From Fimbriiglobus ruber (GTDB taxonomy: Bacteria; Planctomycetota; Planctomycetia; Gemmatales; Gemmataceae): DNA of 64,000 nucleotides. The stretch covers positions 372,001 through 436,000 of the forward strand of contig NZ_NIDE01000002.1 of the NCBI RefSeq assembly GCF_002197845.1, written 5' to 3'. This document shows, one piece after another, positions 43,819 to 58,435 of this stretch. The notes beneath the pieces are model-generated. The model had not been told where the DNA came from. It saw only the letters and a program-made list of their open reading frames with translations, and made no database searches. Each line of letters opens with the position of its first letter. Position 1 is the first letter of the stretch. The position numbers were made by a program, and so were the translations under genes.

Positions 43819-44778
43819 TTACCCCCGTTGCGCCCGCAGCCACGCGTACCACTCCGCCAACCCATCGCCCTTGGTCGCCGAGATCGAAATCACGCGGAGG
43901 CGGGGGTTCACCTGACGGGCGTACGCGATGCAGCGGTCGACGTCGAACGTGACGTACGGCAGCAGGTCGATCTTGTTCAGTAGCATCACTTCGCTGGCCC
44001 GGAACATGTGCGGATATTTGATCGGCTTGTCTTCCCCCTCGGTCACGGACACGATCGCCACCTTCGCCCGCTCGCCCAGGTCGAACAGGGCCGGGCAGAC
44101 CAGGTTGCCGACGTTCTCGATCATCACCACCGAGTTGGCCGGCGGGTCGAGTTGCTTCAACCCGCGGCTCACCATCAAGGCGTCCAGGTGGCAGCCGGTG
44201 CCGGTATTGATCTGTACGACCCGAGCGCCCGTCGCCCGAATCCGCTCGGCGTCGTTGGCCGTCTCCTGATCGCCCTCGATGACGGTCAGCGACAGTTCAC
44301 CGCCCAGGTCGCGGATGGTGCGTTCCAGTAGGGTCGTCTTGCCCGCGCCCGGCGAGCTGACCAGATTCAGCGCGAGGATGTTCCGCCCGTCGAGCCAGCC
44401 CCGGTTCCGCTCCGCGAGGACGTTGTTCTTGCCCAGGATCTGCTCCTGGAGGTGCAACGTACTCGGGGCGTGCGAGTGCGCGGGACCGTGGTCGTGCGAA
44501 TGGGAATGCGTGTGTTCGTGGCCGTGGTCGTGCGTATGGGGGTGATCGTGATCGTGTTCGTGCGTGTGAGGGTGATCGTGGCCCGCGGCGTGTTCGTGGG
44601 AGTGACTGTGGCCTTGATCGTGCGAGTGGCTATGACCGTGCGAATGCGTGTGGCCCTGTTCGGTCGACTTGGCTCCCAAGGGGTGGACGTGGTCGTCGTG
44701 CATGAGAAACCGCTCTCCGGTTTGCAGGTCAGTTAAGACCGCCCCGTCTTCTTCGGAGCAGCCGCAGGTGAGGCACAT
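43819..44778 (-). CDS. hypB: Hydrogenase nickel incorporation GTPase HypB
   Basis: The ATG at 44778 (MCLTCGCSEEDG) is chosen because it gives the CxxCGC N-terminal metal motif and overlaps the hypA stop by one base. The 319-residue protein then has a His-rich stretch (about 48-108, many HSH/HDH units), a nickel store. The GTPase domain follows: SSPGAGKTTLLE (P-loop), EGDQETANDAERI, NTGTGCHLDA, IENVGNLVCPA and LNKIDLLPY. HypB, with HypA, delivers Ni to the hydrogenase large subunit. It is the last gene of the hydrogenase locus. Confidence 0.97.
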   Translation of the reverse strand: MCLTCGCSEEDGAVLTDLQTGERFLMHDDHVHPLGAKSTEQGHTHSHGHSHSHDQGHSHSHEHAAGHDHPHTHEHDHDHPHTHDHGHEHTHSHSHDHGPAHSHAPSTLHLQEQILGKNNVLAERNRGWLDGRNILALNLVSSPGAGKTTLLERTIRDLGGELSLTVIEGDQETANDAERIRATGARVVQINTGTGCHLDALMVSRGLKQLDPPANSVVMIENVGNLVCPALFDLGERAKVAIVSVTEGEDKPIKYPHMFRASEVMLLNKIDLLPYVTFDVDRCIAYARQVNPRLRVISISATKGDGLAEWYAWLRAQRG

Positions 44779-45107
44779 TATTCGACCTCGATTTGGGTAA
44801 CGCGCAACTCTTCGCCGGACAGCCATTCCAGGTCGGTACACCCGCACTCGCACCGGCCGAACGGCCGGTCCAAGGCCACCATTCCGGCACACGCCCGGCA
44901 CTTGGCCGTCCCCGGGATCTCGATGATTTGAAGTTCCGCCCCCGCGACCGACGTGTCTTCCGCGCACATCTCGAAACAGAACCGGACCGCGTCCGGCAGC
45001 ACGGCCGACAGGCGGCCGATTTCGACGACGACTTTACGAACGCGCCGGCCGTCGGCTCGTGCCTCGGCCAGCTCGACGATTTCCTGGGTGATGCCGAGTT
45101 CGTGCAT
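44778..45107 (-). CDS. hypA: Hydrogenase nickel chaperone HypA
   Basis: This 109-residue protein begins MHELGITQEIVELAE, with the nickel-binding His2 of HypA. A zinc site is formed by CRAC and CECGC near residues 73-95. The stop overlaps the hypB start (TAATG). HypA and HypB insert Ni into the large subunit after HypCDEF have placed Fe(CN)2CO. Confidence 0.96.
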   Translation of the reverse strand: MHELGITQEIVELAEARADGRRVRKVVVEIGRLSAVLPDAVRFCFEMCAEDTSVAGAELQIIEIPGTAKCRACAGMVALDRPFGRCECGCTDLEWLSGEELRVTQIEVE

Positions 45108-45124
45108 GTCGAAAACGAACTACC

Positions 45125-45247
45125 TTACATCGCCCGGATGCGGAGGTAACGCATCATGGACGGGATGGCGAACAACAATCCGACCAAAAAGATCGTCTCG
45201 GAGATCACCGCGATAATCCCGCCGACGATTCGCTCGAGAATAGACAT
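45125..45247 (-). CDS. 40-residue single-helix protein (DUF6893-like) in hydrogenase locus
   Basis: This short gene (ATG at 45247, TAA at 45125-45127) encodes 40 residues: MSILERIVGGIIAVISETIF, then a hydrophobic run through LVGLLFAIPSMM, and it ends RYLRIRAM. The pattern of a membrane helix followed by a basic RYLRIR tail is what I recall for DUF6893 small proteins in actinobacterial group 1h hydrogenase clusters. GGGAGG lies upstream. It sits between hypA and the maturation protease on the same strand. Its role is unknown. It might tether or couple the enzyme to the membrane. Confidence 0.75.
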   Translation of the reverse strand: MSILERIVGGIIAVISETIFLVGLLFAIPSMMRYLRIRAM

Positions 45248-45266
45248 GGACGTCCCTCCCTTGAGT

Positions 45267-45770
45267 TTAAGTCACCGTACCCGGACGGTCGTCGATCGCC
45301 GGCCCGAGGAATTCCCGGGCCAGTTCTTCGGCCATCCGGGCCGCTTCCTCGACCGCCGCCTGCACCGGCTCGCTCAGCCCCATCGCCCCTTCGTCCTCGT
45401 CGCCGAGCCACGCAGGCTCGCACCCGATCACCCGCAGCCACGGCGGGCGGCCGCCGAAGGATGCCACCAGTCTCAAAACGTGGTCGGGCGTCAAGGCGTG
45501 GGGGTCGACCGCGACGGCCTCTTCGACCGGTCCCGGTTCGATCACGTACAGCGTTCCAGGCGGCCGGCCGCGCGAAGTCGCGTCGAGCAAGACAGCGCCA
45601 TCATACCCCTCAAGCAGGGCACATGCCAGATCGAAGCCCCGTGTGCCGAAATCCTTTACGTATACGCCCTCGGCTTGCGGCCGCCCGGCCAGGACGCGGG
45701 CGACCTCGCAGCCGAACGCGTCGTCGCCCCGGAAGATGTTGCCGATGCCGGCGAGCAAGAGCCGCCGCAT
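45267..45770 (-). CDS. [NiFe]-hydrogenase maturation protease
   Basis: This 167-residue protein has the HycI/HupD layout: LLLAGIGNIFRGDDAFGCEV at the N-terminus with the nickel-binding Asp/Glu positions, DGAVLLDATSRG for the second acidic ligand, and a central RVIGCEPAW, where many relatives have a His. After Ni insertion it removes the C-terminal tail of the large subunit behind DPCxxCxxH. The start ATG overlaps the preceding gene's stop by one base (TGATG). Confidence 0.93.
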   Translation of the reverse strand: MRRLLLAGIGNIFRGDDAFGCEVARVLAGRPQAEGVYVKDFGTRGFDLACALLEGYDGAVLLDATSRGRPPGTLYVIEPGPVEEAVAVDPHALTPDHVLRLVASFGGRPPWLRVIGCEPAWLGDEDEGAMGLSEPVQAAVEEAARMAEELAREFLGPAIDDRPGTVT

Positions 45771-46126
45771 CAGCCGTTCTCCGCCGGCGGGGAGAACGGT
45801 TCGACCTCGTTGGCGCGGAAAAAGAAGCGGTGCGCAATCTGTCGGGCCACGCCCAAATCTCGGCCGGGGTCGTCGTCCACCGTCACCGCGAAATGGATGT
45901 TTCCCTCGAAGTCCTGCTCGATCGCCTCGATGGTCGCCACCTTGCCGTCCAGGGCGATGTCCATGATGTCGGCCCGGCGGCGGGGGCGCAGGCGAACGCG
46001 ATCGCCGGCCCGCACGGTCACCCCGCGCACGACGACCTCGCTCGGGGCCACGGTCGGTTCATCCCACGGGGCGGGACCGGGAAAGGGATTCACGACTAGC
46101 CTCTTGGGACGCTGACTCGAACACAT
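45770..46126 (-). CDS. Conserved hydrogenase-locus protein of unknown function
   Basis: The frame runs to 46189. I place the start at the ATG at 46126, but a GTG at 46093 (VNPFPGPAPWDEP) is also possible, since the conserved-looking part begins there. The ~118-residue product is a small beta domain: VTVRAGDRVRLRPRRRADIM, ALDGKVATIEAIEQDFEGNI, HFAVTVDDDPGRDLG. A similar ~100-residue protein accompanies group 1h hydrogenases, as far as I recall. It probably assists assembly or regulation. It is translationally coupled to the protease gene. Confidence 0.65.
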   Translation of the reverse strand: MCSSQRPKRLVVNPFPGPAPWDEPTVAPSEVVVRGVTVRAGDRVRLRPRRRADIMDIALDGKVATIEAIEQDFEGNIHFAVTVDDDPGRDLGVARQIAHRFFFRANEVEPFSPPAENG

Positions 46127-46205
46127 TTCCCGAGTTCCACAGGCCGCGTTGCAACGGGCCGCGACAATCAGGGAACACAGGGGAAGCATTTGTAGTAATC
46201 ACGAT

Positions 46206-47249
46206 TCAGGGCGTGGGCTTCGACAATTCTGCACGGAAGGTCTGGACATCGGGGCAACTTAAGGCCGTGCGAAGGAGGGCTTGCAACCGGACTTCGTCCG
46301 CGACCCCTTCCAGTTCCACGGAAAGCCCAGATTCGGCAGGGAAGCGGGTGGCCAGAGTCTCAACGACGACCTCGCGCAAGACGCCCAAGGTCTTCATCCA
46401 AGCCTCTTCCGCCTTCCTGGCTTCTTCAACCCGCTGGGCTTTTTTCAGAAACTCCTCCTCCATTTGTTTATGGAGTTTCTCGAAATCCTTTTGCTGTTTC
46501 TCCAAGCCTTCACGGACGCCTTCACGGATGCTTTCACGGATGTATGCCTCGGCTTCTTCCTTGGCTAGCTTGCGCATCAGCGCGTAGGCTTCGTCCAGGA
46601 CTGGAGATTCGATCATGGCTCGCTCCTCTCCGAACAGATCCAGCATTTTGTGACCCGGGTAGGCCAGGCCGGCCAGGATCCTGGTCACCGCGCTCAAACC
46701 TTGATAATCCCGCTTTTCCGTCACGCGGTCGAGGGCATCCTTGCACCGCCGGAGTACGTCCTCGGGCGGGTCGCCCGATCGGGCCAGCGGAACCCACGGG
46801 ACCAGTCCCGCATCGCCCGTGGCCAGCAAGTCATCCGCGTTCAACTCCCACAGCCGGGTCACGCGCCACGAACCCGCGAGCCGGGCCGTCGCCCGGCGGC
46901 TAACCCGCTCGGCCACCCCACTGACTTCCACGTTCCCCTTGGGCCGCAGCACCAACATCACGACGTCGGGCACGACTCCACGAACCAGGTTGATGAGGAA
47001 TAAATCCTCCAACACCTGGCGGTCGGCGTCGGACGACGGGTAGGTTTCGATCTCCACCAGGACCAGGGTCGGTTGGTCCTCGCCCGGGAACCGGACCTCG
47101 AGCAACCCGTCCGCGAGCCGCCGCGGGGCGACGGTTTCGGGCTGGAGGGGCCGCCAGGTGGTGAAGCCGTCCAAACCGGCCAACTTCAGGATAGCGTCTC
47201 CGTGATGGGTGAGCAGCCATTTGCCGCTGCGATCCTTGTCCTGCCGCAT
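46206..47249 (-). CDS. Rpn/PD-(D/E)XK-nuclease-like protein (DUF4351-type)
   Basis: This 347-residue protein carries LLEVRFPGEDQPTLVLVEIE followed by TYPSSDADRQVLEDLFLINL, matching the acidic and E-x-E core of the Rpn/YhgA-like PD-(D/E)XK group that is abundant in planctomycetes. A charged coiled-coil region near 230-285 (EKQQKDFEKLHKQMEEEFLK) precedes the C-terminus. It lies inside the hydrogenase gene run, on the same strand, with 79 bases on one side and 59 on the other. Unlike its neighbours it is not overlapped, so it may be an insertion into the locus. Its biological target is unknown. Confidence 0.78.
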   Translation of the reverse strand: MRQDKDRSGKWLLTHHGDAILKLAGLDGFTTWRPLQPETVAPRRLADGLLEVRFPGEDQPTLVLVEIETYPSSDADRQVLEDLFLINLVRGVVPDVVMLVLRPKGNVEVSGVAERVSRRATARLAGSWRVTRLWELNADDLLATGDAGLVPWVPLARSGDPPEDVLRRCKDALDRVTEKRDYQGLSAVTRILAGLAYPGHKMLDLFGEERAMIESPVLDEAYALMRKLAKEEAEAYIRESIREGVREGLEKQQKDFEKLHKQMEEEFLKKAQRVEEARKAEEAWMKTLGVLREVVVETLATRFPAESGLSVELEGVADEVRLQALLRTALSCPDVQTFRAELSKPTP

Positions 47250-47308
47250 CGGCCCCCCGACTCATGTACGGACCCGGCTCCCGGCGCGGATCGGGCAAAA
47301 CCGGGAAA

Positions 47309-48319
47309 TTATCTGTAACCATGTTCTTCGGCCGCCGGCTTCACGCCGCGGAGCGTGCCGTGCAGCCGCATCAGGTCGTCCCCGGTGAGCGCTTCCGTTC
47401 GGGCGAGGAGGGCGTCGGCCCGCGGGTCGGCCGCCCGCATTTCTCGCTTCTCGTCGTCCGTCATCGTCAGGATGCGGAGCGTCAGAATCTCGTCGATCTC
47501 GGTCGCGTCGAACAGGTCGCCCGGGCTCTCGGGGGCGATCTCCGGGTAGTCGTAGAGGATGATCGGGGACGCGAGCAGCGTGTCCCGCGCACCGGCCCCG
47601 CCGACCAGCACCGGCCAGACGCCGACGTTCATGCACCCGGCGACCGCTTCCCGTAATGCGTCGGGCGGGTCGAACAGGGACACGAACGCCCCGCCGCGTC
47701 CCGCTTCCAAAATCACGTGCGTCGAGACCAGTGACACCGGCAGCAGCTCCTCGCGGCCGCCGGCCGGGTGTTCCGGCTCGGTCAGGTTCACGACGCGCAC
47801 GGTGAGCCGGACGAGGCCGGCCGCCACCTCGTTCGTCTGCCATTCGACGGCCCCGCGGACCTCACTCTGGTCCCGCACGACCTCGCCGATGTCGTCGCCG
47901 GTCGGACCGCGGAGGGTTTCGCGGACCTGGCGGCGGGGGAACGAAAACTCGTGCCGGCCCTCCGACGCGCCGAGCCCAGGTATGTCGACTTCGACCCCGC
48001 GGTCCTCGGCTTCCTGCCACGCCGGGCCGCGCCGGCCGTCGGCGTGGTGCAACAACCGGGTGACCAGGTGCAGGAACCGCACGCGGATGCGGACGGTCGC
48101 CTCCGATCCGCCTTCCACCAGACACTCGGTCTGGAGGGAACTCGGCTCGTCCGCGGCGCGGGCCAACTCGCAGTCCTGCGGGAAGAGCCCGCCGAACGTC
48201 CACCGCTGCCGGTTCTTGACCGACGTCGGCCGGTACGGGTAGAGCAAATACCCTTCGTACAAGACCGCGTCCGCGATCCGGTCGACCAGCGGCCGGCTTG
48301 TGGGCTCGCCTTCGCTCAT
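47309..48319 (-). CDS. Conserved protein of group 1h hydrogenase clusters, function unknown
   Basis: The ATG at 48319 (MSEGEPTSRPLVDRIADAVL) overlaps the upstream DUF6084 stop (ATGA), fixing the start; the longer frame to 48742 is not used. The 336-residue protein opens with YEGYLLYPYRPTSVKNRQRW, followed by TFGGLFPQDCELARA. Beta-rich stretches follow (HEFSFPRRQVRE, LVRLTVRVVNLTE), then PIILYDYPEIAPESPGDLFD, an acidic DATEIDEILTLRI and a helical C-terminus. I recall this protein as a regular companion of actinobacterial-type hydrogenases. No catalytic motif is clear. It is likely an assembly or electron-transfer accessory. Confidence 0.75.
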   Translation of the reverse strand: MSEGEPTSRPLVDRIADAVLYEGYLLYPYRPTSVKNRQRWTFGGLFPQDCELARAADEPSSLQTECLVEGGSEATVRIRVRFLHLVTRLLHHADGRRGPAWQEAEDRGVEVDIPGLGASEGRHEFSFPRRQVRETLRGPTGDDIGEVVRDQSEVRGAVEWQTNEVAAGLVRLTVRVVNLTEPEHPAGGREELLPVSLVSTHVILEAGRGGAFVSLFDPPDALREAVAGCMNVGVWPVLVGGAGARDTLLASPIILYDYPEIAPESPGDLFDATEIDEILTLRILTMTDDEKREMRAADPRADALLARTEALTGDDLMRLHGTLRGVKPAAEEHGYR

Positions 48320-48957
48320 GGGCTCGCCTCCGCGGGCAGGAGCCGTTCGAGCGCCTGCTCCCAGGTCGGCAGGCCGTTCGCCGACTTGAACCGGTAGAGC
48401 CGGTCGAACACGTCTTGCGGCAGGCAGAGCCACGCGGAGTTCGGGTAGTATTGGGCCATCATCTCCCGCCACACCGCGGCCGGCAGCCGGTACTCGGTTT
48501 CCCGGTCCCACGGCACCTGGGCGACCTGGAGGCTGCCGGCCGGTCCCTCGTAGAAGATCGTCCCGCTGAACAGCAGTTTGACCACGATGTCGCCGGTTTC
48601 CAGGGCGTAAAAATATTTGGTCGCGCCGATGTTGAAGTCGAATGTACACGGCACCGGCAGGTCGAATCGGGCCTCCCCCTCGAACGCCGGCACCATCGCC
48701 GCGGCGTGCGTCCAGAGCATGCTCCGGAGCGTCTGCCCCCACCGCGACGGCTCGCCGAACAGCTCGACCAGCCGCGCCTTGTCGCCGGGCGTGTACGTCC
48801 GCGCGGTCGGGTCGATCCGCAGTTGGCAGCGGAGGGCGATGGCATGAATCGGCTCGTTCGCCGGGGTATTCGTGACCCGCAGTTTAAACACCAGTTGCGG
48901 GGCGGCGGCGTACGCGACGGCCTCCACCCCCTCGGCCCGGAAGCCCAGATCAGGCAT
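48316..48957 (-). CDS. DUF6084-family hydrogenase accessory protein
   Basis: The internal ATG at 48957 (MPDLGFRAEGVEAVAYAAAP) is preferred; it overlaps the upstream gene by 8 bases. The 213-residue product is beta-rich: LVFKLRVTNTPANEPIHAIA, LRCQLRIDP, FDLPVPCTFDFNIGATKYF and a late YYPNSAWLCLPQDVFDRLYR. The sequence and position match DUF6084, a family known to me from group 1h hydrogenase clusters. No biochemical role is known. Confidence 0.8.
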   Translation of the reverse strand: MPDLGFRAEGVEAVAYAAAPQLVFKLRVTNTPANEPIHAIALRCQLRIDPTARTYTPGDKARLVELFGEPSRWGQTLRSMLWTHAAAMVPAFEGEARFDLPVPCTFDFNIGATKYFYALETGDIVVKLLFSGTIFYEGPAGSLQVAQVPWDRETEYRLPAAVWREMMAQYYPNSAWLCLPQDVFDRLYRFKSANGLPTWEQALERLLPAEASP

Positions 48958-49555
48958 ACCACCGCTCCTTGGCCCGGGCAAAAAAGCCGTCGATCTCGGT
49001 CCAGACATCCGACCCGCCGGTCAGCCCCCGCCACCGGCTGCGGACGAGGCCGACCAGTTCGTAACAGGCGTCGATCGGGGCGCGGAAGTAGTCCCGCGTC
49101 TGGCGGACGCGGTACACCAGTAATGCTTCGACATCCGGCTCGAAGTCACCCAGGACCGGGTTCGCGGCGGTGAGTTCGTCCCACGCGCCCGCCGGCAGGT
49201 CGGACGCGGTCGCCCCGGCCGGGCTGGGGTAGAAGGCGACCGCCCGGCCGTCGCCGCGGCGGACGAAGAAGGCGAGGTTGATGGGCGTCCGGAGGTGGTC
49301 CCACTGCTCGTCCGTGAGGACGAAATCGGGCAGGAGCCGGCCGTCTCGCGGAACCGCCCGGAACTTGGCCCCGTTCTGCCCTACGAACAGCAGCGCGCAC
49401 GGGTCGCAGCTGCAGGCCAGGTCGCGGCTGGCGAGGTCGAGTAGGTGGCGGTGGCCGGGCGGGAGTTCCCGACCGCACAACTGGCACCGCTCGACCACCG
49501 GGCGCGGGCGGGCGTACTTTCGCAGTGCCCCCATCGGGCCGGTCGGCTGACTCAT
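48950..49555 (-). CDS. DUF5947-family hydrogenase accessory protein
   Basis: This 201-residue protein contains two Cys pairs near the N-terminus (ERCQLCGRELPP and LACSCDPCALLF) that could bind a metal or Fe-S cluster. PDFVLTDEQWDHLRTPINLA, AFYPSPAGAT and a C-terminal DACYELVGLVRSRWRG follow. This matches DUF5947 as I recall it. It overlaps NifU-like and DUF6084 genes at its two ends (4 and 8 bases), so translation is coupled. The cysteine pairs suggest a rubredoxin-like electron carrier, which is inference. Confidence 0.82.
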   Translation of the reverse strand: MSQPTGPMGALRKYARPRPVVERCQLCGRELPPGHRHLLDLASRDLACSCDPCALLFVGQNGAKFRAVPRDGRLLPDFVLTDEQWDHLRTPINLAFFVRRGDGRAVAFYPSPAGATASDLPAGAWDELTAANPVLGDFEPDVEALLVYRVRQTRDYFRAPIDACYELVGLVRSRWRGLTGGSDVWTEIDGFFARAKERWYA

Positions 49556-50118
49556 CCGCTCGCCCCCACGACCACTTCCCCGACCATCGGCAGGGAGAAC
49601 AGCCGGCTCGGCGCCGCCTGGGGTTGGTCCGGGGCGTCCACTTCCAGGCCGGCCCGGTCCGGGGCGGCGTCGTCCAGCGCGGTCTCGACGAGCCCGCGGA
49701 GGGTGGCGCCGGACGAGGGGCAGCCGTTGCAGTTGCCCTGCAACCGCAAGCGGATGACGCCGTCGTCCGTGCCGAGTAATTCGACCCCGCCGCCGTGCGA
49801 CGCGAGCGCCGGGCGAACGGATTCGAGCGCCCGGCGGACCCGTGTCTCGAAGTCGACCGGGTGCAACCCGTGGAGCAACAGAAGGCTCGCCACCAACCCG
49901 TCGTTCGTGTAGGCGTCGATCGCGGCGCGGCCCGGGGGGCCGGCTTCTTTCAGCACGTCGAGAGCCCGGGACAGGCCGGCCGCGTGCAATTCGAGCAGGG
50001 CGGCGATGAGATCCTGCGTGACCGCCCGGGCGGCCGGGTCGGCGAACCGCTCGGCCTCCGCGATCAAAGTCTCGACCCGGGCCATCCGCCGCCCGAACCC
50101 GCCGTCGTCGGTGGACAC
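49552..50118 (-). CDS. NifU-like Fe-S scaffold protein in hydrogenase locus
   Basis: This 188-residue protein has a helical N-terminal region and a NifU C-terminal domain near 90-155: ALESVRPALASHGGGVELL, VIRLRLQGNCNGCPSSGATL. The CxxC (NCNGC) binds a [4Fe-4S] cluster for transfer. Dedicated NifU-like proteins accompany hydrogenases of this group. Here it may load the small subunit or DUF5947. It is the first gene after the large subunit and overlaps DUF5947 by 4 bases. Confidence 0.88.
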   Translation of the reverse strand: MSTDDGGFGRRMARVETLIAEAERFADPAARAVTQDLIAALLELHAAGLSRALDVLKEAGPPGRAAIDAYTNDGLVASLLLLHGLHPVDFETRVRRALESVRPALASHGGGVELLGTDDGVIRLRLQGNCNGCPSSGATLRGLVETALDDAAPDRAGLEVDAPDQPQAAPSRLFSLPMVGEVVVGASG

Positions 50119-50146
50119 GCGTGCGATCCTTTCAGGGGGGTGTAAA

Positions 50147-50295
50147 GCGAGCGGGGGACGTCAGTCCCCTGATTCTTGTGGATTTCGAGAAACCGTTCCG
50201 GGTTCTCTGAACCCGGAACAGTTGGGGAAGGTCGTGGGCACTGTTTTCCGACACAGGTGGTTCCGAGAATCAGGGGACTGACGTCCCCCGCTCGC
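50147..50295. repeat. Cloverleaf-forming inverted repeat between hydrogenase genes
   Basis: Perfect 30-base outer arms lie at 50147-50176 and 50266-50295, each containing its own small hairpin (GGGGACGTCAGTCCCC). A central 11-bp stem is at 50195-50205/50209-50219 with a 3-base loop. It separates the large-subunit gene from the nifU-like gene and may be a mobile palindrome or an mRNA processing/attenuation site. Confidence 0.88.
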
Positions 50296-50303
50296 CGGAA
50301 AAC

Positions 50304-52115
50304 CTACGAGTGCCCGGCCTGGGAGCCGAACATCGGGGTGTGCTTCACCTGGAGTTCCTTGCCCTCGCCGAGGTACATGTGGACCCCGCACGGCAGGCAC
50401 GGGTCGAAGCTGCGGACGGCCCGCATGATGTCGATGCCCTTGAAGTCGTCCGGCCCGTTCTCCTCGAAGATCGGCGTGTCCTGCACGGCGTCTTCGTACG
50501 GCCCGGGGGTGCCGTAGATGTCCCGCGGGTTGGCGTTCCACGGGGTCGGCGGGTACGGGTGGTAGTTCGCGATCTTCCCGTCCCGGATGACGACGTGGTG
50601 CGACAGCACGCCGCGGACGGCCTCGTGGAACCCGCACCCGATCGCGTCCTTCGGCACCTTGAACTCGGTCCACGTCTTGGTCCGGCCGGCGTGCAGTTCC
50701 TTCATCGCCTGCTCGACGAAGTACAGGGCGGCCGCCGCCGAGTACGCCTGGAAGTACGTCCGAGCCCGGTCCCGTTCGAGGGCGTTGCTCCACTTCGGGA
50801 TCTTCCACTCGAACTCGACCTCGCCCTTGGTGGCCGACTTCGGCAGGTAGATCTTCACGCTCTGGCCGGTCGACTTGACGTACCCGATGTCGACCAACCC
50901 GGCGAGCGCGGTCGCCCACAGGCGGGCGATCGGGCCGCCGCCGGTGTCGATCGCCAGGTGGTCGTTGGTCCGCTTGTCCAGCCACCGGGGGGACATCACC
51001 CAGGTGTACTTCCCGCCGTTCAAGTCCCGCTTCTGCGGCCGCGGGATGGTCGTCTGGTTCCACGGGTGCTTCTGGTCGACCGGGTTGCCGAGCGGGTCCG
51101 TCTTGACGAACGTCTCGCTCTTGTCCCAGTCGTCGTAGTACGACGACCCGAGCAGGATGCGGATGTTCAGGCCGATGTCCACGAGGTCGGTGGTGACCAG
51201 CTTGCCGTCGACGATGATGCCCGGGGTGACGTACATCCCCCGGCCCCAGTTGGTCATCGTCTTGTACTGGAAGTCGCAGACCTCGGGGTTCTGGAACGAC
51301 CCCCAGCAGCCGAGCAGGACCCGCCGGCGGCCGACCTCCTCGTACCCCGGCAGCGCCTCGTACCAGAAGTCGAACAGGTCGTCGTGCAGCGGCACCACCT
51401 TCTTCATGAACTCGACGTACTTCATCAGCCGGACGAGGAAGTCCGTGAAGAGCTGGACCGTCGGCACCGTCCCGACGCCGCCCGGGTAGAGGGTGGACGG
51501 GTGGACGTGCCGGCCTTCCATCAGGCAGAACATCTCCCGCGTCAGCCGGCTCATCGACAGGGCTTCGCGGTAGAACTCGCCGGTGAACGGGTTGAGCGAC
51601 ACCAGGATGTCGCCGATCGTCCGGTACCCGTGCTCGGCCGAGTGCCGGGCGAGCGTCTTCTGGGCCTTGTCCCAGACGCTCGGGTTGGTCGCCTTGACCA
51701 TCTGCTCGCAGAAGTCGACCCCGACCAGGTTGTCCTGGTAGATGTTGTGGTCGAACATGTACTCGGCGGCCTCGCCGAGGTTCGTGATCCACTCGGCGAT
51801 CGCGGGCGGCTTGACGCCGAACGCCATGTTCTGGGCGTACACGGCGCAGGTCGCGTGGTTGTCGCCGCAGATGCCGCAGATGCGGCTGGTGATGAAGTGG
51901 GCGTCCCGCGGGTCTTTGCCCTTCATGAAGATGCTGTACCCGCGGAAGATCGACGACGTGCTGTGGCACTCGACGACCTTGCGGTTCGCGAAGTCGATCT
52001 TCGTGTAGATGCCCAAGCTCCCGACGATCCGGGTGATCGGGTCCCACGACATTTCAACCAGCCCGCCGGGGTTGGTCGGGCTCGCCTGGCGGCTCGGGGA
52101 AGCGGTCGTCGACAT
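50304..52115 (-). CDS. hhyL: [NiFe]-hydrogenase large subunit, group 1h type
   Basis: This 603-residue protein binds the NiFe centre through the L1 motif RICGICGDNHATC (Cys80, Cys83) and the L2 motif DPCLPCGVH (Cys573, Cys576). After the L2 His579 a 24-residue tail (MYLGEGKELQVKHTPMFGS to the end) is left for removal by the maturation protease. Wording around both motifs is that of the high-affinity actinobacterial-type enzymes (group 1h, formerly group 5) that oxidise trace H2. No signal peptide is present. The small-subunit gene lies 171 bases upstream on the same strand. Confidence 0.96.
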   Translation of the reverse strand: MSTTASPSRQASPTNPGGLVEMSWDPITRIVGSLGIYTKIDFANRKVVECHSTSSIFRGYSIFMKGKDPRDAHFITSRICGICGDNHATCAVYAQNMAFGVKPPAIAEWITNLGEAAEYMFDHNIYQDNLVGVDFCEQMVKATNPSVWDKAQKTLARHSAEHGYRTIGDILVSLNPFTGEFYREALSMSRLTREMFCLMEGRHVHPSTLYPGGVGTVPTVQLFTDFLVRLMKYVEFMKKVVPLHDDLFDFWYEALPGYEEVGRRRVLLGCWGSFQNPEVCDFQYKTMTNWGRGMYVTPGIIVDGKLVTTDLVDIGLNIRILLGSSYYDDWDKSETFVKTDPLGNPVDQKHPWNQTTIPRPQKRDLNGGKYTWVMSPRWLDKRTNDHLAIDTGGGPIARLWATALAGLVDIGYVKSTGQSVKIYLPKSATKGEVEFEWKIPKWSNALERDRARTYFQAYSAAAALYFVEQAMKELHAGRTKTWTEFKVPKDAIGCGFHEAVRGVLSHHVVIRDGKIANYHPYPPTPWNANPRDIYGTPGPYEDAVQDTPIFEENGPDDFKGIDIMRAVRSFDPCLPCGVHMYLGEGKELQVKHTPMFGSQAGHS

Positions 52116-52161
52116 ATGGGGTTCCTGACCTGAACTGTGTGCGGGGATGGGTTGGGGGTTC

Positions 52162-52281
52162 AGTCGTCAAGTCATCAGGTCATCAAGTCTTCAGGTCAAA
52201 AACCGCAAGTCGGCGGCCGGTGTTGCCCGAGCGCAAGAAGCCCGGGTGCTCCCGACTTGATGACTTGACGACCTGATGACT
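52162..52281. repeat. TCATCAAGTC-type repeats between hydrogenase subunit genes
   Basis: Units such as AGTCGTCAAGTCATCAGGTC at 52162-52190 face inverted units at 52253-52281, giving an imperfect hairpin between the small- and large-subunit genes. It is the same family as the repeats at 35283-35437. It could set the ratio of the two subunits through mRNA structure, though this is only an inference. Confidence 0.78.
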
Positions 52282-52286
52282 ATTTT

Positions 52287-53360
52287 TCAGACTTTCGCCG
52301 GGGGAACCTGGTAGCCGGTCGTCAGTTCTTTCCCCGGGTGCCGCCACTGCGGTTCCTTGTTGACGCTGGCCTGGGTGAACGACCGGAGGGCGCGGACGGT
52401 GCGGCCGTAGATGCCGACGGCCGTCGAGGACAGCTTGGCCCCCGGCGGCTCATCCATGAACGGCATGAACTTGTCCGGGAACCCGGGCATGGTGCAGCCG
52501 ATGCAGATGCCGCCGACGTTCGGGCAGCCGCCGATGCCGGCCATCCATCCCCGCTTGCCGACGTTGCAGTTGACCACCGGCCCCCAGCAGCCGAGCTTGA
52601 CGATGCACTTCGGCGACCCGTACTCCTTGGCGAAGTCGGCCTGCTCGTAGTACCCGGCCCGGTCGCAGCCCTCGTGGACCGTGCTGCCGAACAGCCAGGT
52701 CGGCCGCAGGTTCTCGTCCAGCGGGATCATCGGGGCCAGGCCGGCCGCCTGGTAGAGCAGGTACAGCAGCGTCTCCATGAAGTTGTCCGGCTGGACCGGG
52801 CACCCCGGGACGCACACGATCGGCAGGCCGGCCGACGACTTCCACTTCCACCCGAGGTAGTCCGGCAGGCCCATCGCCCCGGTCGGGTTGCCGGCCATCG
52901 CGTGGATGCCGCCGTAGGTCGCGCAGGTGCCGATCGCGACGACGCCCCACGCCTTCGGGGCGAGCCGGTCGATCCACTCGCAAGTGGTGATCGGTTGGCC
53001 GGTCTCTTTGTTCGTGCCGAGGGCCGCCCAGTACCCCTCGGCCTTGATCTTCTCGTTCGGAATCGACCCTTCGACGACCAGGACGAACGGCGAGAGCCGG
53101 CCGGCCTCGGCCTCGTACAGGAAGTGCATGAACTCGTCCCCGTTCTCAATACAGAGAACCGGGTTGTGGACGTGAACTTTTGGCAGGCCGGGGATCGCGC
53201 CGAGGATCACGTCCTCGATGCTCGGCTGGGTGGCGGCGGTGATGGACACCGAGTCGCCGTCGCAGCTGAGCCCGGCCGTGATCCAGACGATGTGAACTTC
53301 CTTCACGGCCGGCGGCTTCTGCGTCTTCCGCCCGTAGGGGACTGGCGTCGCGTCGGACAT
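52287..53360 (-). CDS. hhyS: [NiFe]-hydrogenase small subunit, group 1h type
   Basis: The ATG at 53360 (MSDATPVPYGRK) has GGAGG twelve bases upstream, so the longer frame from 53402 is rejected. The 357-residue protein carries three Fe-S clusters. The proximal-cluster motif reads GLSCDGDSVS, so the usual second Cys of CxxC is Asp36, the 3Cys-1Asp ligation known for oxygen-tolerant actinobacterial-type enzymes. Others lie in AIGTCATYGG, CVPGCPVQPDN, VHEGCDRAGYY, KLGCWGPVVNCNVGKRGW and GGCPNVGGICIGCTMPGFPD. No twin-arginine signal is present, so the enzyme is cytoplasmic or membrane-associated from the inside. Confidence 0.96.
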   Translation of the reverse strand: MSDATPVPYGRKTQKPPAVKEVHIVWITAGLSCDGDSVSITAATQPSIEDVILGAIPGLPKVHVHNPVLCIENGDEFMHFLYEAEAGRLSPFVLVVEGSIPNEKIKAEGYWAALGTNKETGQPITTCEWIDRLAPKAWGVVAIGTCATYGGIHAMAGNPTGAMGLPDYLGWKWKSSAGLPIVCVPGCPVQPDNFMETLLYLLYQAAGLAPMIPLDENLRPTWLFGSTVHEGCDRAGYYEQADFAKEYGSPKCIVKLGCWGPVVNCNVGKRGWMAGIGGCPNVGGICIGCTMPGFPDKFMPFMDEPPGAKLSSTAVGIYGRTVRALRSFTQASVNKEPQWRHPGKELTTGYQVPPAKV

Positions 53361-53733
53361 TACAGACTTCCTCCCGAGGACCGGTGGATTGGCTCGAAAC
53401 ACCTGCCCCCGTCGGCCGGGGGCGACATGACCCGTCTTGTCGTGATCCGTTCGCTCGTCGTCGACCGCTCACTCGCCCGAGATCGACCCGGCTATGCCGC
53501 AAGGCTATTTTTGTCCTGCAAAAACAACACCGTTCGCGGCAAATCGCCGCGGGCCAGTCTGTGCGGCAGCGTACAGTGCCCGATCGTCCGCCAGGATAAC
53601 ACGTTTGTCACCCGGGTCACGGTTTTCGCACGTTTTTTCTGAATAGTTTTCTTGAGATCTTCTTTCTGTCCGTAACGGACGGCTGAACTGAGTTTAGGTC
53701 GCTCGTTTCGGGCGGGACCATTCCCGCGTGAGT
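53361..53733. other. Intergenic region upstream of the hydrogenase structural genes
   Basis: This gap separates hypE from hhyS on the same strand and is the longest break in the locus, so it probably holds a promoter for the structural genes. The stretch 53500-53700 is more AT-rich. I found no clean sigma-54 (GG...GC) site. No gene is seen. Confidence 0.5.
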
Positions 53734-54789
53734 TTAACAAATCCGCGGCATCTGTTCGCCCGCCAGCACGGGCACCACCCGCTCGCCGCCGACCAGCGAT
53801 TCCATCGTCACGAACCCCGCTCGCCCGTCCGTCACCGTCCCGATCAGGGCCGCGTTTCGTCCGAGCGGGTGTTTGCGGACGGTCGCGAGTAGTCGTTCGG
53901 CGTCGTCCGCCGGAACGACGGCCACGAGTTTGCCTTCGTTCGCGACGTAAACCGGGTCGAGCCCGAGCATTTCGCACGCCGCCCGCACTTCGGCGCGGAC
54001 CGGCAATTTCGACTCGGTCACCCGTACCCCGACCTTCGACGCCACCGCCAGTTCGTTCAGCACGCCCGCGAGACCGCCGCGGGTGGGGTCGCGCATGCAC
54101 CGGATTGAGGGGCACGCGGTCAACATCGTGTCCGCTAACCCTGCGAGTGGAGCGACATCACTTTCTAGCACAGTCTCGAACTCGATCCCCTCGCGGACGG
54201 ACAGAATCGCGACGCCGTGGTCGCCGATGGTGCCGGAGACCAGAATGCGGTCGCCGGGCCGGGCGTTCCGGATCGATAGCGACCGGCCCGGCGGGAAGAC
54301 GCCCACGCCGGTGGTGGTCACGAACACCTGATCGCCCTTGCCGCGGTCGACCACCTTGGTATCGCCCGTGACCAGTTCCACCCCGGCCTCGTCGCAGGCG
54401 GCCCGCATTGAGGCCGCAATTTTCCGCAGGTCGGCCAGCGGCAGCCCTTCTTCCAGGATGAACGCGGCGGCCAGGAACCGCGGCGTCGCCCCGGCGACGG
54501 CCAAGTCGTTCACCGTCCCGCAGACCGCCAGCCGGCCGATGTCCCCGCCGGGGAAAAACACCGGCCGGACGACGAACGAGTCGGTGGTGAACGCGATCCG
54601 CCCGCCTCCCTCTCCGAGCGTCAACGTAGCCGAGTCTTCCAGCGCGGTCGCGTTCGCCCCGCCGAAGGCCGGCAGGAACAGCTTCCCGATCAGGTCGGCC
54701 GTGAGCCGGCCGCCGCTGCCGTGGCCGAGCAGGATGCGGTCGTAATCGGTCCGCGGCACCGGACAGTCGCCGAACCCCTTGATCGTCAC
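53734..54789 (-). CDS. hypE: Hydrogenase maturation protein HypE
   Basis: This 351-residue protein of the PurM/AIR-synthase fold starts MTIKGFGDCPVPRTDYDR. Typical blocks are LGHGSGGRLTADLI, TTDSFVVRPVFFPGGDIGRL, CGTVNDLAVAGATP, GDTKVVDRGKGD and MRDPTRGGLAGVLNELA. The C-terminus ends PRIC, whose Cys is carbamoylated and dehydrated to the thiocyanate that yields CN ligands. It follows hypD by 3 bases. Confidence 0.97.
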   Translation of the reverse strand: MTIKGFGDCPVPRTDYDRILLGHGSGGRLTADLIGKLFLPAFGGANATALEDSATLTLGEGGGRIAFTTDSFVVRPVFFPGGDIGRLAVCGTVNDLAVAGATPRFLAAAFILEEGLPLADLRKIAASMRAACDEAGVELVTGDTKVVDRGKGDQVFVTTTGVGVFPPGRSLSIRNARPGDRILVSGTIGDHGVAILSVREGIEFETVLESDVAPLAGLADTMLTACPSIRCMRDPTRGGLAGVLNELAVASKVGVRVTESKLPVRAEVRAACEMLGLDPVYVANEGKLVAVVPADDAERLLATVRKHPLGRNAALIGTVTDGRAGFVTMESLVGGERVVPVLAGEQMPRIC

Positions 54790-54792
54790 TCG

Positions 54793-55914
54793 TCATGCCC
54801 TCGCCGGTACTCGTATTCCGAGCGGTTCCAGGTGTCGCCCGTAGGCGTGGTACGCGGCGCACGCGCCTTCCGCGGACACCATCGTCGCCCCGAGCGGCGT
54901 CTGCGGCGTACACTCCGTCCCGAAGGCCGGACAATGGTGCGGCTTCTTCAACCCGCGGAGGATCTCGCCGCTGATGCAGACCTCCGACTCCTGCGTCTCG
55001 ATGTCGCCGACCGTGAACCGGTGTTCGGCGTCGAACGCCCGGTACTCGTCCCGGAGGCGCCAGCCGCTGTTCGGGATGAGCCCGACCCCGCGCCACTTCC
55101 GGTCGCAGACCTCGAACACGTCCGCGAGGAGTTGCCGCGACCGCAGGTTGCCGTCCGGCCGGACTGCCCGGGCGTAGCGGTTTTCCACCTCCGCCCGACC
55201 GGCCTCCAGTTGTTCGATCGCGCCGAGGACGCCGTCGAGCAGGTCGATCGGCTCGAACCCGGTGACGACGATCGGCACCCGGTACTGTTCGACGAGCGGT
55301 TCGTACTCGGCGCAGCCCACGACCGCGCAGACGTGGCCCGGCCCGAGGAACGCCTGGACCCGGTTGTCCGGGGCGGCCAAGATGGCCGCGATCGTCGGCG
55401 GGACCAACACGTGTGACACGAGCAGGCTGAAGTTCGTCAGCCCGCGCTTCTTGGCCATCCAGGCGGACATCGCGTTGGCCGGGGCCGTCGTCTCGAACCC
55501 GATGGCGAAGAAGACCACCTGCCGACCCGGGTTCGCGGCCGCGATGTTGACCGCGTCGAGCGGCGAGTAGACCACGCGGACGTCGGCCCCCTCGGACTTG
55601 AGCCGGAGCAGATCGCCGGTCGACCCGGGCACCCGGAGCATGTCGCCGAACGAGCAGAACGTCACGCCCGGCTTGGCCGCGATGGCGTGCGCCCGGTCGA
55701 TCATTTCGAGCGGGGTGACGCAGACCGGGCACCCCGGCCCGTGGACCAGTTCGATCCCCGGCGGCAGCAGCGTGTCGAGCCCGTAGCGGACGATCGTGTG
55801 GGTCTGCCCGCCGCAGACTTCCATGATCGTCCACGGCCGCGTGGCCGCCCGGCCGATGGCCCGCACGAGGGCCGCCGCCGCGTCCGCGTCCCGGTATTCG
55901 TCGAGGAACTTCAT
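54793..55914 (-). CDS. hypD: Hydrogenase maturation protein HypD
   Basis: This 373-residue protein has [45 protein letters not shown] and [11 protein letters not shown], then the Fe-S cluster cysteines in the C-terminal third ([24 protein letters not shown]). HypD with HypC assembles the Fe(CN)2CO group. The start overlaps the hypC stop by four bases (ATGA type). Confidence 0.97.
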
Positions 55915-56162
55915 CCGGCGGGCTCCTCAAGTTCTTCGAGTTGGCCAAATTCTTCGAGGAAGCTAAAGATCCGTTTCGCCTCGTCCTCGTCCACCCGCGA
56001 CAGCGCGAACCCGACGTGAACCAGGACGTATTCCCCGACCGTCACGTCCGGGACGTGTTCGAGGCAGGCCGCCTTCCGCACGCCGCCGAAATCGATCTTG
56101 CCCATGAGGACGCCGTGCTCGTGGTAAGTTTCGACCACCTTACCCGGGACACTCAAGCACAT
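55911..56162 (-). CDS. hypC: Hydrogenase maturation chaperone HypC
   Basis: The ATG at 56162 gives an 83-residue protein starting [20 protein letters not shown], with the essential Cys2. [20 protein letters not shown] and the [16 protein letters not shown] block are canonical. The tail is Glu-rich. It overlaps hypF by 10 bases and hypD by 4, so hypFCD are translationally coupled. HypC carries the Fe intermediate to the large subunit. Confidence 0.97.
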
Positions 56163-58435
56163 AATTTTTGCTCCGTTCGGGTCGCGACCGCCGCCGCGAC
56201 CGCCAGTTGGCCGAGGCAGAGCCCGCCGTCCCCGGCCGGCACCCGACGATGGCGACAAACCCGGAACCCGTCCGCCTGCAACCGTGCGACCGTTTCGCCG
56301 AGTAGTAGGCCGTTGTGAAAGACCCCGCCGCTCAGCGCCACCAGGGACAACCCGCTCTCGACCCGGAGGCGGTCGCAGGTGCGGGCGATGATCTCGACCA
56401 GCGTCGTGTGGAACCGCCGGGCGATCCGCGCCGCGAACTCGCCACGGGCCGCGTCCCGCTCCACCGCCGCGACCAGCGGCCGGCAGTCGATCTCCCACGC
56501 CTCCGCCCCGGCCGTCACTTCAAATGGATAACTTTCGTCCGGAGCCGCGGTCGCCGCCAGTCCTTCCAGTTCGATCGCGGCCTGTCCTTCGTAACTGACC
56601 CGGTGCCGGACGCCCGCGATGGCGGCGACCGCGTCGAACAGCCGGCCGGCGCTCGACGTGAGTGGAGCCAGCGCGCGTTTCGTGAGCAACTGCCGGGCGG
56701 TTCGAAGCGAGACCGTGGGAACCGCCGGGCTCAGTATGGCCGGTTCGACGCCCGCGTCAACTAAATACGCCAGCGCCATCCGCCACGGCTCGCGGACAGC
56801 CTGCTCGCCGCCCGGCATCGGGACCGCCCGCAGGTGCGCCGCTCGTCGGACAGATCCGCAGTCGCCGACCAGGAACTCGCCGCCCCAGATCGTGCCGTCG
56901 AGCCCGTAGCCGGAGCCGTCGAACGTCACGCCGATGGCGGGTTCGTCCAGGCCGTTCTCGGCCAGGCAACTCGCGAGGTGGGCGTGGTGGTGCTGGACCG
57001 CGATCCGGCGCGGCACGTCGTCTCGTTCCAGCGCATACCGGGTCGAGGCGTAGTCGGGGTGCAAGTCGTGTACCAGCACGGCCGGCTTGAACCCGAACAG
57101 TTGCTCGTAGTAGGCGACAGCCGCGGTAAACGCGCGGAATGCTTCCGCGTGGTCGAGGTCGCCGAGGTGGTGGCCGAGCGTGGCCTGCCGGCCGCGGCCC
57201 AGGGCGAACACCGACTTCAGTTGTCCGCCGACGGCCAACGTGGGCTCCGGGCACTCACAGGCCAGCGAGACCGTCCCCGGGGCGTACCCACGCGAGAGCC
57301 GTACCGGCGCTTCCGCGCCCGCGCTCCACCGCGTCACCGAGTCGTCGGCCCGAATGTTAATCCGTCGATCGTGCGTCAAGAACTGGTCGGCGATGCCGCG
57401 AAGTCGGGTGATGGCGTCAGCGTCGTCGAACGCGATCGGCTCGTCGGACCGGTTGCCGCTGGTCATCACGAGCGGCCCGCCCGCGTCGCGCAGCAACAGG
57501 TGGTGCAGCGGCGTGTACGGGAGCATCAGCCCGACGGCCGGGTTCCCCGGCGCGACGCCCGCCGCCAGACCGGCCGAAGGTCGCCGCCGCAACAGGACGA
57601 TCGGCCGCCGCGGATCGCGGAGCAGTGTCGCCTCGGCGTCCGAAACCTCGGCGAGTCGTTTGGCAGCCTCTATGTCCGCGACCATGACGGCGAACGGCTT
57701 CTCGTCGCGGTGCTTTCGCCGCCGCAGTTCGGCGACCGCACCCTCGTTCCCGGCGTCACAGGCGAGGTGATACCCCCCCAACCCCTTGACCGCCAGGATT
57801 TGCCCAGCCCGCACGGCCGCGACCGCCTCGCCCAACGGGTCAGCCACCGACCGCGGACTTCCGTCGCCATCAACCAGGCTCAGCCGCGGCCCGCATGCGG
57901 GGCAAGCGACCGGCTGGGCGTGGAACCGGCGGTCCGTGGGGTCGTCGTACTCGGCCCGACACGCCGGACACATCGTGAAGCCAGCCATCGTCGTTCGTTC
58001 ACGATCATATGGTGCCGAGATAATGATGGTGAGCCGGGGGCCGCATTGCGTGCAATTGAGGAACGGGTAGTGGAACCGGCGGTCGGACGGGTCGAACAAC
58101 TCGGCGAGACAAGCGTCGCAGGTGGCAAGGTCGGGGCCGATGGCAACGGGGCCGCCGTCCGCCGCGCTCGCCTCGATGCGAAAATCGCCGTCACCGACGG
58201 GAGTTCGGCTCTCCCAAGAAACGTCTTCGATTCGGGCGGCCGGCGGGGCTTCGGCGGTCAACCCGTCCAAGAACCGGCCGATGATTTCCGCCTCGCCCTC
58301 AACTTCGATCCAAACACCGCCGGTCTGATTCCGCACGTACCCGTTGAGCCCCAACCGCCGAGCGAGTCCGTAAACGAACGGCCGAAACCCCACCCCCTGG
58401 ACGAGCCCGCGAACGATGATGGCTCGCCTCTTCAT
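56153..58435 (-). CDS. hypF: Carbamoyltransferase HypF
   Basis: The ATG at 58435 (MKRRAIIVRGLVQGVGFRPF) begins directly with the acylphosphatase domain; the frame's earlier Met at 58492 is unlikely. The protein has 760 residues. Two zinc-finger pairs follow (CDACLAEL with CTQCGPR, CPACRAEY with CPACGPR), then a YrdC-like domain (ILAVKGLGGYHLACDAGNE, MTSGNRSDEPIAF). The Kae1-like C-terminal domain has AVQHHHAHLASCLAENG and VTFDGSGYGLDG. HypF makes the carbamoyl donor for HypE. It is the first gene of the locus, opposite a divergent response-regulator gene. Confidence 0.97.
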   Translation of the reverse strand: MKRRAIIVRGLVQGVGFRPFVYGLARRLGLNGYVRNQTGGVWIEVEGEAEIIGRFLDGLTAEAPPAARIEDVSWESRTPVGDGDFRIEASAADGGPVAIGPDLATCDACLAELFDPSDRRFHYPFLNCTQCGPRLTIIISAPYDRERTTMAGFTMCPACRAEYDDPTDRRFHAQPVACPACGPRLSLVDGDGSPRSVADPLGEAVAAVRAGQILAVKGLGGYHLACDAGNEGAVAELRRRKHRDEKPFAVMVADIEAAKRLAEVSDAEATLLRDPRRPIVLLRRRPSAGLAAGVAPGNPAVGLMLPYTPLHHLLLRDAGGPLVMTSGNRSDEPIAFDDADAITRLRGIADQFLTHDRRINIRADDSVTRWSAGAEAPVRLSRGYAPGTVSLACECPEPTLAVGGQLKSVFALGRGRQATLGHHLGDLDHAEAFRAFTAAVAYYEQLFGFKPAVLVHDLHPDYASTRYALERDDVPRRIAVQHHHAHLASCLAENGLDEPAIGVTFDGSGYGLDGTIWGGEFLVGDCGSVRRAAHLRAVPMPGGEQAVREPWRMALAYLVDAGVEPAILSPAVPTVSLRTARQLLTKRALAPLTSSAGRLFDAVAAIAGVRHRVSYEGQAAIELEGLAATAAPDESYPFEVTAGAEAWEIDCRPLVAAVERDAARGEFAARIARRFHTTLVEIIARTCDRLRVESGLSLVALSGGVFHNGLLLGETVARLQADGFRVCRHRRVPAGDGGLCLGQLAVAAAVATRTEQKLCA

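Follow-up and report, generated by a model that had tools for sequence, protein, structure and literature searches.

Much atmospheric H2 is believed to be removed by the group 1h [NiFe]-hydrogenases of soil bacteria, enzymes that have been described as membrane associated, with an anchor that is unidentified (PMC7174314; PMC13332983). A 2026 paper states that no anchoring subunit of the group has been identified (PMC13332983). The locus analyzed in the current study, from the Gemmataceae planctomycete Fimbriiglobus ruber, raises the question of whether such an enzyme is encoded there in full, what it would do with H2, and which gene product might hold it at the membrane. The window, by which we mean the whole stretch of 64,000 nt that was analyzed, carries the hydrogenase locus at 43,819-58,435, with all of its genes on the minus strand. 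Taken as a whole, the explanation that we consider probable is that the locus is complete, that its enzyme (HhyLS) would oxidize H2 at low concentrations, and, less surely, that a 40-residue microprotein encoded alongside it would dock HhyLS at the membrane.

The group 1h locus and its two subunits

An earlier note on this DNA had assigned the hydrogenase to group 1h and proposed a phylogeny of the large subunit, HhyL, as a check; both that tree and the pairwise identities place the window inside the group. A quick tree built from 94 large subunits puts all 88 rows of group 1h, including that of the window, on one 100% branch, outside which lie HoxG and HyaB (group 1d), HoxC (2b), HoxH (3d), a Huc-like protein (2a-like), and a distant planctomycete hydrogenase. 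Although the branches of these six reference rows are long, we accept the placement because the tree and the identities agree, HhyL being 76-85% identical to its counterparts within group 1h versus 25-31% to the other hydrogenases compared. The nearest solved relatives are HofG and HofK of the Cupriavidus necator group 1h enzyme (structure 5AA5). HhyL (50,304-52,115; PF00374, expect value [E] 1.6e-63) is 82.1% identical over the full query to the large subunit encoded on C. necator pHG1 (HofG; 1189 bits), and the small subunit, HhyS (52,287-53,360), matches HofK in phmmer at an E of 8.6e-187.

The CxxD motif that had been reported in the proximal cluster of HhyS is indeed present, as Cys33-Asp-Gly-Asp36. 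The ligands C33, D36, C146, and C187, together with the further cluster ligands, are identical in all 94 rows of group 1h (several loci having been entered twice). The position of Asp36 is occupied by Cys in HoxK, HyaA, and HoxB, while the small subunit next to the Huc-like large subunit of Mycobacterium gordonae (a label given in this analysis) has CSGN at the place of CxxD. The HhyL translation carries RICGICGDNHATC and DPCLPCGVHMY, one motif near each end, which we take to be the Ni-binding Cys pairs. Read by eye, the HhyS translation displays no obvious twin-arginine translocation (Tat) motif or C-terminal helix, and both subunits may lack a Tat signal and membrane helices. The genome (12,363,577 bases in 20 contigs) has one hydrogenase large subunit, matched as two stretches of a single frame.

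The maturation genes lie on either side of the subunits. Upstream are hypF, encoding the carbamoyltransferase (56,153-58,435; TIGR00143, 9.9e-235), hypC (55,911-56,162, starting at an ATG at 56,162; TIGR00074, 3.1e-19), hypD (54,793-55,914; TIGR00075, 7.3e-147), and hypE (53,734-54,789; TIGR02124, 4e-135); downstream are the hydrogenase maturation protease gene (45,267-45,770; TIGR00072, 1.6e-30), hypA (44,778-45,107; PF01155, 5.1e-29), and hypB (43,819-44,778, starting at an ATG at 44,778 and encoding a His-rich N-terminal stretch; TIGR00073, 3.2e-81). The full minus-strand order is hypF-hypC-hypD-hypE-hhyS-hhyL, the NifU-like, DUF5947, and DUF6084 genes, x336, a 347-amino-acid (aa) open reading frame (ORF), x140, the protease gene, the 40-aa ORF, hypA, and hypB. 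All of the hyp genes, both subunits, and the NifU-like, DUF5947, and DUF6084 genes, which had been claimed to lie on one strand, have Pfam or NCBIfam matches there. The accompanying claim of overlapping starts holds for part of the locus (hypF/hypC, hypC/hypD, the run from the NifU-like gene through DUF5947 and DUF6084 to x336, x140/protease, and hypA/hypB, with hypD and hypE 3 nt apart); elsewhere there are gaps of 373 nt (hypE-hhyS), 171 nt (hhyS-hhyL), and 185 nt (hhyL-nifU). Nor are the accessory genes contiguous, since the 347-aa ORF (46,206-47,249), which the earlier note did not mention, separates two of them.

That the locus is complete is borne out by an identical 14-gene order (the 347-aa ORF and the microprotein not being counted) in three further loci, L042, L062, and L095, all from Planctomycetota; many other loci are too short to display all 14 genes. 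An 8-gene core order recurs in 59 of the 71 loci that extend 6.5 kb past the middle of hhyL. These and the following counts describe close kin, as the relatives' loci are the best 80 of at least 582, with Actinomycetota represented by mycobacteria only; L052 was dropped as a duplicate of L095 (genome G483; same HhyL). Judged from its sequence, then, the group 1h [NiFe]-hydrogenase locus of this Gemmataceae planctomycete is complete, and the ligands of its subunits are all intact.

A conserved microprotein and its possible role

Beginning 19 bases past the protease stop, the ORF at 45,125-45,247 encodes a single-helix microprotein of 40 residues (MSILERIVGGIIAVISETIFLVGLLFAIPSMMRYLRIRAM) that ends in RYLRIRAM and is a candidate membrane anchor. 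It had been called DUF6893-like, a description that stands insofar as a multi-locus profile places the ORF in the group; its own Pfam score is 11.5 bits versus a cutoff of 24.6. DUF6893 (PF21833) shares the helix and the C-terminal RY[LI][RK]xRxM with the group 1h microproteins, and 7 of 10 of these tested pass its cutoff; against NCBIfam, none of nine tested (that of the window included) was over the cutoff.

The profile, based on 54 sequences that a regular expression had picked out, was applied to 38,053 stop-to-stop fragments from the loci, and 70 members were chosen, 67 of them at E<1e-3. The microprotein occurs, beside the window, in 68 of 74 informative loci from six phyla. Informative here means at least 650 bases past the protease match, with the window, L097, and L103 left out; L037 is scored as lacking the microprotein although its contig begins close to hhyS. 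In 66 of the 74 it lies on the same strand as the protease gene, starting between -619 and +689 bases relative to where the protease match ends. The nine mycobacteria have it before the protease gene and the others after it, and in L014 it lies ca. 10 kb before that gene on the opposite strand. Among controls, the profile gave zero matches at E<1 in 38,053 shuffled fragments and in 3,385 fragments from other hydrogenase operons, other loci, and the rest of the window. The tail is conserved: all 70 members end in Met, 69 have Tyr at -7, 68 have Arg at -8, and 69 have Lys or Arg at -5. An ATG start was found for 68 of 70 and, by a loose rule, a Shine-Dalgarno-like stretch for 61 of 70; lengths run from ca. 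31 to 69 residues, depending on the starts chosen. The ratio of nonsynonymous to synonymous differences (pN/pS; pairwise sums, uncorrected) is 0.28 in nine mycobacteria, 0.16 in six Methylocystis, and 0.25 in nine Burkholderiales. Such low values mark a selected protein, and the microprotein is thus under purifying selection.

In 16 of 16 whole genomes the microprotein was the sole match at E<=0.01, always inside the hydrogenase locus (14 of these genomes have a row in the profile, and for G487, 150 of 195 candidates were scored). Across 95 Gemmataceae genomes there were three matches at this threshold: the own genome (E 1.6e-7, with a model that includes it), the hydrogenase locus of G466, and a match in G421 (E 0.009, inside a 400-aa frame) that we take for chance. 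The microprotein of G483 was missed in this search and found with a larger model. An apparent absence from C. necator, whose enzyme has a low affinity, was dropped, as the regular expression had missed a copy that the profile found (L094:19699-19800); the pHG1 feature table lists nothing over it, such tables being incomplete.

What might this protein do? A hydrophobic stretch of 17 residues with a mean Kyte-Doolittle value of at least 1.6 is present in 65 of 70 microproteins, and 62 of 70 carry more positive charge on the C-terminal flank than on the N-terminal one; by the positive-inside rule, the conserved tail would then face the cytoplasm, the compartment of HhyLS. Assigned by homology, HhyLS would be a cytoplasmic uptake hydrogenase built by HypABCDEF and the protease encoded alongside. 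We suggest, with less assurance, that the microprotein sits in the membrane with its positively charged C terminus (RYL[RK][ILM]RxM) on the cytoplasmic side, and that this tail may dock the otherwise soluble HhyLS at the quinone pool, either directly or via DUF5947, DUF6084, or x336. The only microprotein copy of Edaphobacter aggregans, ca. 150 bases upstream of a second hhyS, indicates that the protein can accompany a small subunit without maturation genes. That neighborhood (L043:5050-8707), upstream of hhySL, comprises the microprotein, the second hhyS, a 555-aa ORF, and, by eye, a response-regulator-like ORF, and is possibly an H2-sensing module. We rate the microprotein as a tentative candidate for the membrane anchor, at roughly one chance in three, because of its hydropathy and charge pattern, its place beside the second hhyS of E. 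aggregans, and the lack of a known group 1h anchor.

Several points weigh against this proposal. C. necator has the microprotein even though the group 1h enzyme of this species has been described as a cytoplasmic, low-affinity one (PMC7174314); the microprotein alone thus confers neither membrane binding nor high affinity. Its place beside the protease gene in most loci fits a maturation role too, and it is missing from five Gemmataceae loci that have hhyL (L098-L102). The window and Singulisphaera microproteins are divergent (E 0.33 to PF21833, below the gathering cutoff, for the former; no Pfam match for the latter, L062), and 3 of the 70 members (L041, L062, and L075) were admitted by place at an E of 0.03-0.4. 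The profile, moreover, was trained on most of the loci later counted. When each phylum was left out in turn, 47 of 70 members were recovered at E<1e-3, with 0 of 9 for Actinomycetota, and recovery of all 70 took a threshold of E<10. Finally, close kin are overrepresented in the sample of the best 80 relatives, and its Actinomycetota are all mycobacteria.

The further value of the locus lies in such small conserved parts, on which we found no experiments in the literature searched. DUF6893 had no mention among the matches listed in a combined-term search, no separate search for it having been made. A small protein found in six phyla turns the anchor question into a single-gene deletion test.

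Accessory proteins and alternative explanations

Of the other accessory proteins, DUF5947 (48,950-49,555; PF19372, 7.5e-68) has six Cys and two His residues (C24, C27, H35, H37, C48, C50, C53, and C164) that are invariant in all 75 rows aligned, after removal of those whose match covered 140 residues or fewer. It occurs in 4 of the 10 Gemmataceae genomes with an HhyL match, the own genome included; of the six that lack it, two have low completeness (G455, 74%; G421, 69%). The DUF6084 protein (48,316-48,957; PF19562, 6.7e-91) gave a model with a predicted local distance difference test score (pLDDT) of 88.6 and weak PDB matches (best E 2.7e-4; query template modeling [TM] score of at most 0.40 among the 50 rows listed). 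The literature search found no paper on DUF5947 and nothing on the DUF6084 protein. Microprotein, DUF5947, and DUF6084 all occur in 67 of 74 loci, and none of them occurs in four compact Gemmataceae loci (L098, L099, L100, and L102). Of the other three loci, L101 has only DUF5947, and L037 and L078 are truncated by contig ends, the contig of L078, which lacks the DUF genes, beginning at the protease. It is conceivable, at somewhat less than even chances, that the microprotein is both a group 1h subunit and the missing anchor, that DUF5947 rather than HhyE is the metal-binding partner, and that the two form one module with DUF6084.

Two alternatives concern how the enzyme is connected to the membrane and the respiratory chain. 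The microprotein may instead be a maturation or stability factor that acts at the membrane with the protease or the Hyp proteins, and not an anchor of the finished enzyme. Its nearness to the protease gene in 66 of 74 loci, and its location between that gene and hypA in the window, would suit such a role. Control stretches with other [NiFe] hydrogenases, proteases, and hyp genes (L121, L122, and L139) nonetheless gave zero matches, and the E. aggregans copy adjoins the second hhyS, away from the protease and hyp genes; we regard maturation as being equally likely as anchoring. The other candidate for the connection is the NifU-like HhyE (49,552-50,118; 188 aa), which would take up electrons from the small subunit and pass them to the respiratory chain as proposed for Mycobacterium smegmatis, where HhyE is essential for Hhy activity, is thought to be an electron acceptor, and has noted truncated forms (PMC6883350). 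The window copy does retain CNGC (residues 130-133) in its NifU domain (PF01106, 3.5e-20); this is its single CxxC, however, and the M. smegmatis-type C-terminal domain with two CxxC motifs is absent. Across relatives, both NifU cysteines are kept in 35 of 85 aligned rows (the window included; L056, whose frame is cut, was excluded) and the pair is missing in 50, and mapping the cysteine state on the HhyL tree (84 labeled rows) requires at least 11 changes. HhyE of E. aggregans DSM 19364 has no Cys at all, although the species oxidizes atmospheric H2; only the species name links the record to the tested culture, however, and a further, weaker PF00374 (hydrogenase-like) match is present in the genome. 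That of Thermogemmatispora tikiterensis T81 has one of the two cysteines, and a Methylocystis bryophila protein without a NifU domain has been described (PMC12319191). We read this as suggesting that the NifU cysteines may be dispensable in some group 1h systems, and they are unlikely to be a general part of group 1h electron transfer; an electron-carrying role for HhyE in the window is correspondingly improbable in our view. A split of a longer HhyE into NifU and DUF5947 parts was also considered and rejected, as mycobacteria have a long HhyE with its own two-CxxC C terminus plus a separate DUF5947 gene.

The remaining alternatives question whether the enzyme would scavenge trace H2 and whether it is made at all. 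The earlier note had taken CxxD as the mark of atmospheric H2 oxidizers, a use that fails with C. necator, which has CxxD in a cytoplasmic enzyme of low affinity with a Km of 3.6 uM and cannot use atmospheric H2 (PMC7174314); atmospheric H2 oxidation is not universal within group 1h (PMC7174314), and CxxD marks the group rather than the ability. The window, sharing CxxD and 82% identity with HofG, might likewise encode a low-affinity enzyme that uses H2 from microniches rather than from air. A six-protein tree, however, groups it with two loci from planctomycetes, separately from the Burkholderiales clade, and the group 1h-bearing acidobacterium E. aggregans oxidizes H2 below the atmospheric level, down to 0.36 ppmv with a Km of 95 nM (PMC8027828); we think a low-affinity enzyme rather unlikely. 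With Thermogemmatispora T81 taking up H2 to 120 ppbv (PMC6776052) and M. bryophila, a strain with further hydrogenases, having a Km of 35 nM (PMC12319191), scavenging of trace H2 by the window enzyme is plausible by analogy with these kin. HhyLS would then oxidize low H2 once organic carbon is exhausted and may pass the electrons to the aerobic respiratory chain, supplementing a heterotroph. The own genome has a match to COX1 (heme-copper oxidase) and none to PF02738 (CO dehydrogenase large subunit, CoxL type) or to RuBisCO (PF00016), a combination compatible with a heterotroph for which H2 is a supplement. The only COX1 match (G000:C17:926330-927657) is in two pieces, the first with an internal TGA, from a frameshift or a sequencing error. 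Lastly, the operon could be decaying, the 347-aa ORF having interrupted an accessory gene so that the enzyme is no longer properly made. For this it can be said that x336 (47,309-48,319) and x140 (45,770-46,093; start uncertain) form one frame in Burkholderiales, mycobacterial, Methylocystis, and Verrucomicrobia loci, and a broken gene was at one point suspected because they are one gene in C. necator. They are separate frames, however, in most acidobacterial and most Chloroflexota loci as well as in L042, L062, L095, and L096, so that the 347-aa ORF stands between two genes; all HhyS ligands, too, are intact. We dropped the broken-gene interpretation and find decay very hard to credit.

As for these accessory frames themselves, x336, a conserved protein with no Pfam family, corresponds to the N-terminal part of the fused protein of other phyla and the small x140 to its C-terminal part. 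In a model of the fused form from L048 (L048:13873-15189; pLDDT 80.0), the larger part has no convincing relative (best E 7.6e-6, to DrmA, TM 0.26). PetP of cytochrome b6f is matched over 75-76 columns with target TM scores of 0.77 and 0.67; the matching stretch is presumably the C-terminal x140 barrel, the rows being silent on which part aligned. There is also a weak match to nitrile hydratase beta. Fold matches of neither DUF6084 nor x336/x140 were used as evidence of function. The 347-aa ORF had no tblastn match in the other group 1h loci compared, no Pfam family, and no informative PHROG. It has two closer paralogues near one another on contig C17 of the own genome (86% over residues 1-244 and 78% over residues 1-230), with strong DNA similarity over window positions 46,552-47,265, the start-proximal part; our guess, by eye and unproven, is a PD-(D/E)XK (Rpn-like) protein. 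The hhyL-nifU gap (50,119-50,303) is filled by a doublet of paired palindromes of the GGGGACGTCAGTCCCC type, a dispersed element resembling repetitive extragenic palindromes and bacterial interspersed mosaic elements (REP/BIME-like) with at least 151 partial matches in the own genome; it is an insert in the operon and stands outside the enzyme system. Another inverted repeat, with units like GTCATCAAGTC, lies in the hhyS-hhyL gap (52,116-52,286).

Relatives and known systems

Group 1h hydrogenases in Planctomycetes are not new. They have been reported previously, including in Singulisphaera, as clustering with acidobacterial ones, and in <3% of genomes of such phyla (PMC8027828); the operon is a further case of a known enzyme type. 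A literature search on Fimbriiglobus and hydrogenase yielded nothing on the subject. At E<=1e-30, HhyL had matches in 2 of 392 genomes sampled across the phylum, one of the two being only 33% identical: this is a different planctomycete [NiFe] hydrogenase (G145:C271:4288-5805, L004) whose small subunit has CSGC. Within the family, matches were found in 10 of 95 genomes and 7 of 39 genera, two of the ten being fragments. Planctomycete rows are scattered in the HhyL-only tree; in the six-protein joined tree (18 near-identical loci thinned, 68 to 50 rows), the window, Singulisphaera sp. GP187, and G483 form a 99% clade, with a Schlesneria metagenome-assembled genome elsewhere. The group 1h loci of other Gemmataceae (L097-L102) have neither DUF6084 nor the microprotein. 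DUF5947 and the NifU CxxC are likewise missing from five of the six, L101 being the one that retains both; five have a shortened fused x336/x140, and the five with hhyS on the contig retain every HhyS ligand.

Among the closest systems are those of Singulisphaera sp. GP187 (L062) and G483 (L095, or RYN_437), which share the 14-gene order of the window; unlike in the window, their x336-x140 interval lacks space for the 347-aa ORF, and the G483 microprotein has, by the start chosen, a longer N terminus. C. necator HofKG (HhyL, 82% identity; HhyS, 76%) is encoded with the same accessory set: NifU, DUF5947, DUF6084, x336/x140, protease, microprotein, and hyp genes. However, all of its hyp genes follow the protease gene, x336/x140 being a single gene, and its HhyE lacks both NifU cysteines, whereas that of the window keeps CNGC. 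The C. necator group 1h small subunit itself (L094:12908-13963, WP_011153986.1) is annotated in the pHG1 record as "hydrogenase expression protein HypE." A more distant parallel is offered by M. smegmatis HhyE/HucE and by Huc (group 2a), likewise an uptake hydrogenase without a cytochrome b subunit and with a NifU-like partner (PMC6883350). Compared with M. smegmatis HhyE, that of the window is a short form, and while the Huc-like small subunit of M. gordonae has CSGN at the proximal position, the window has CxxD.

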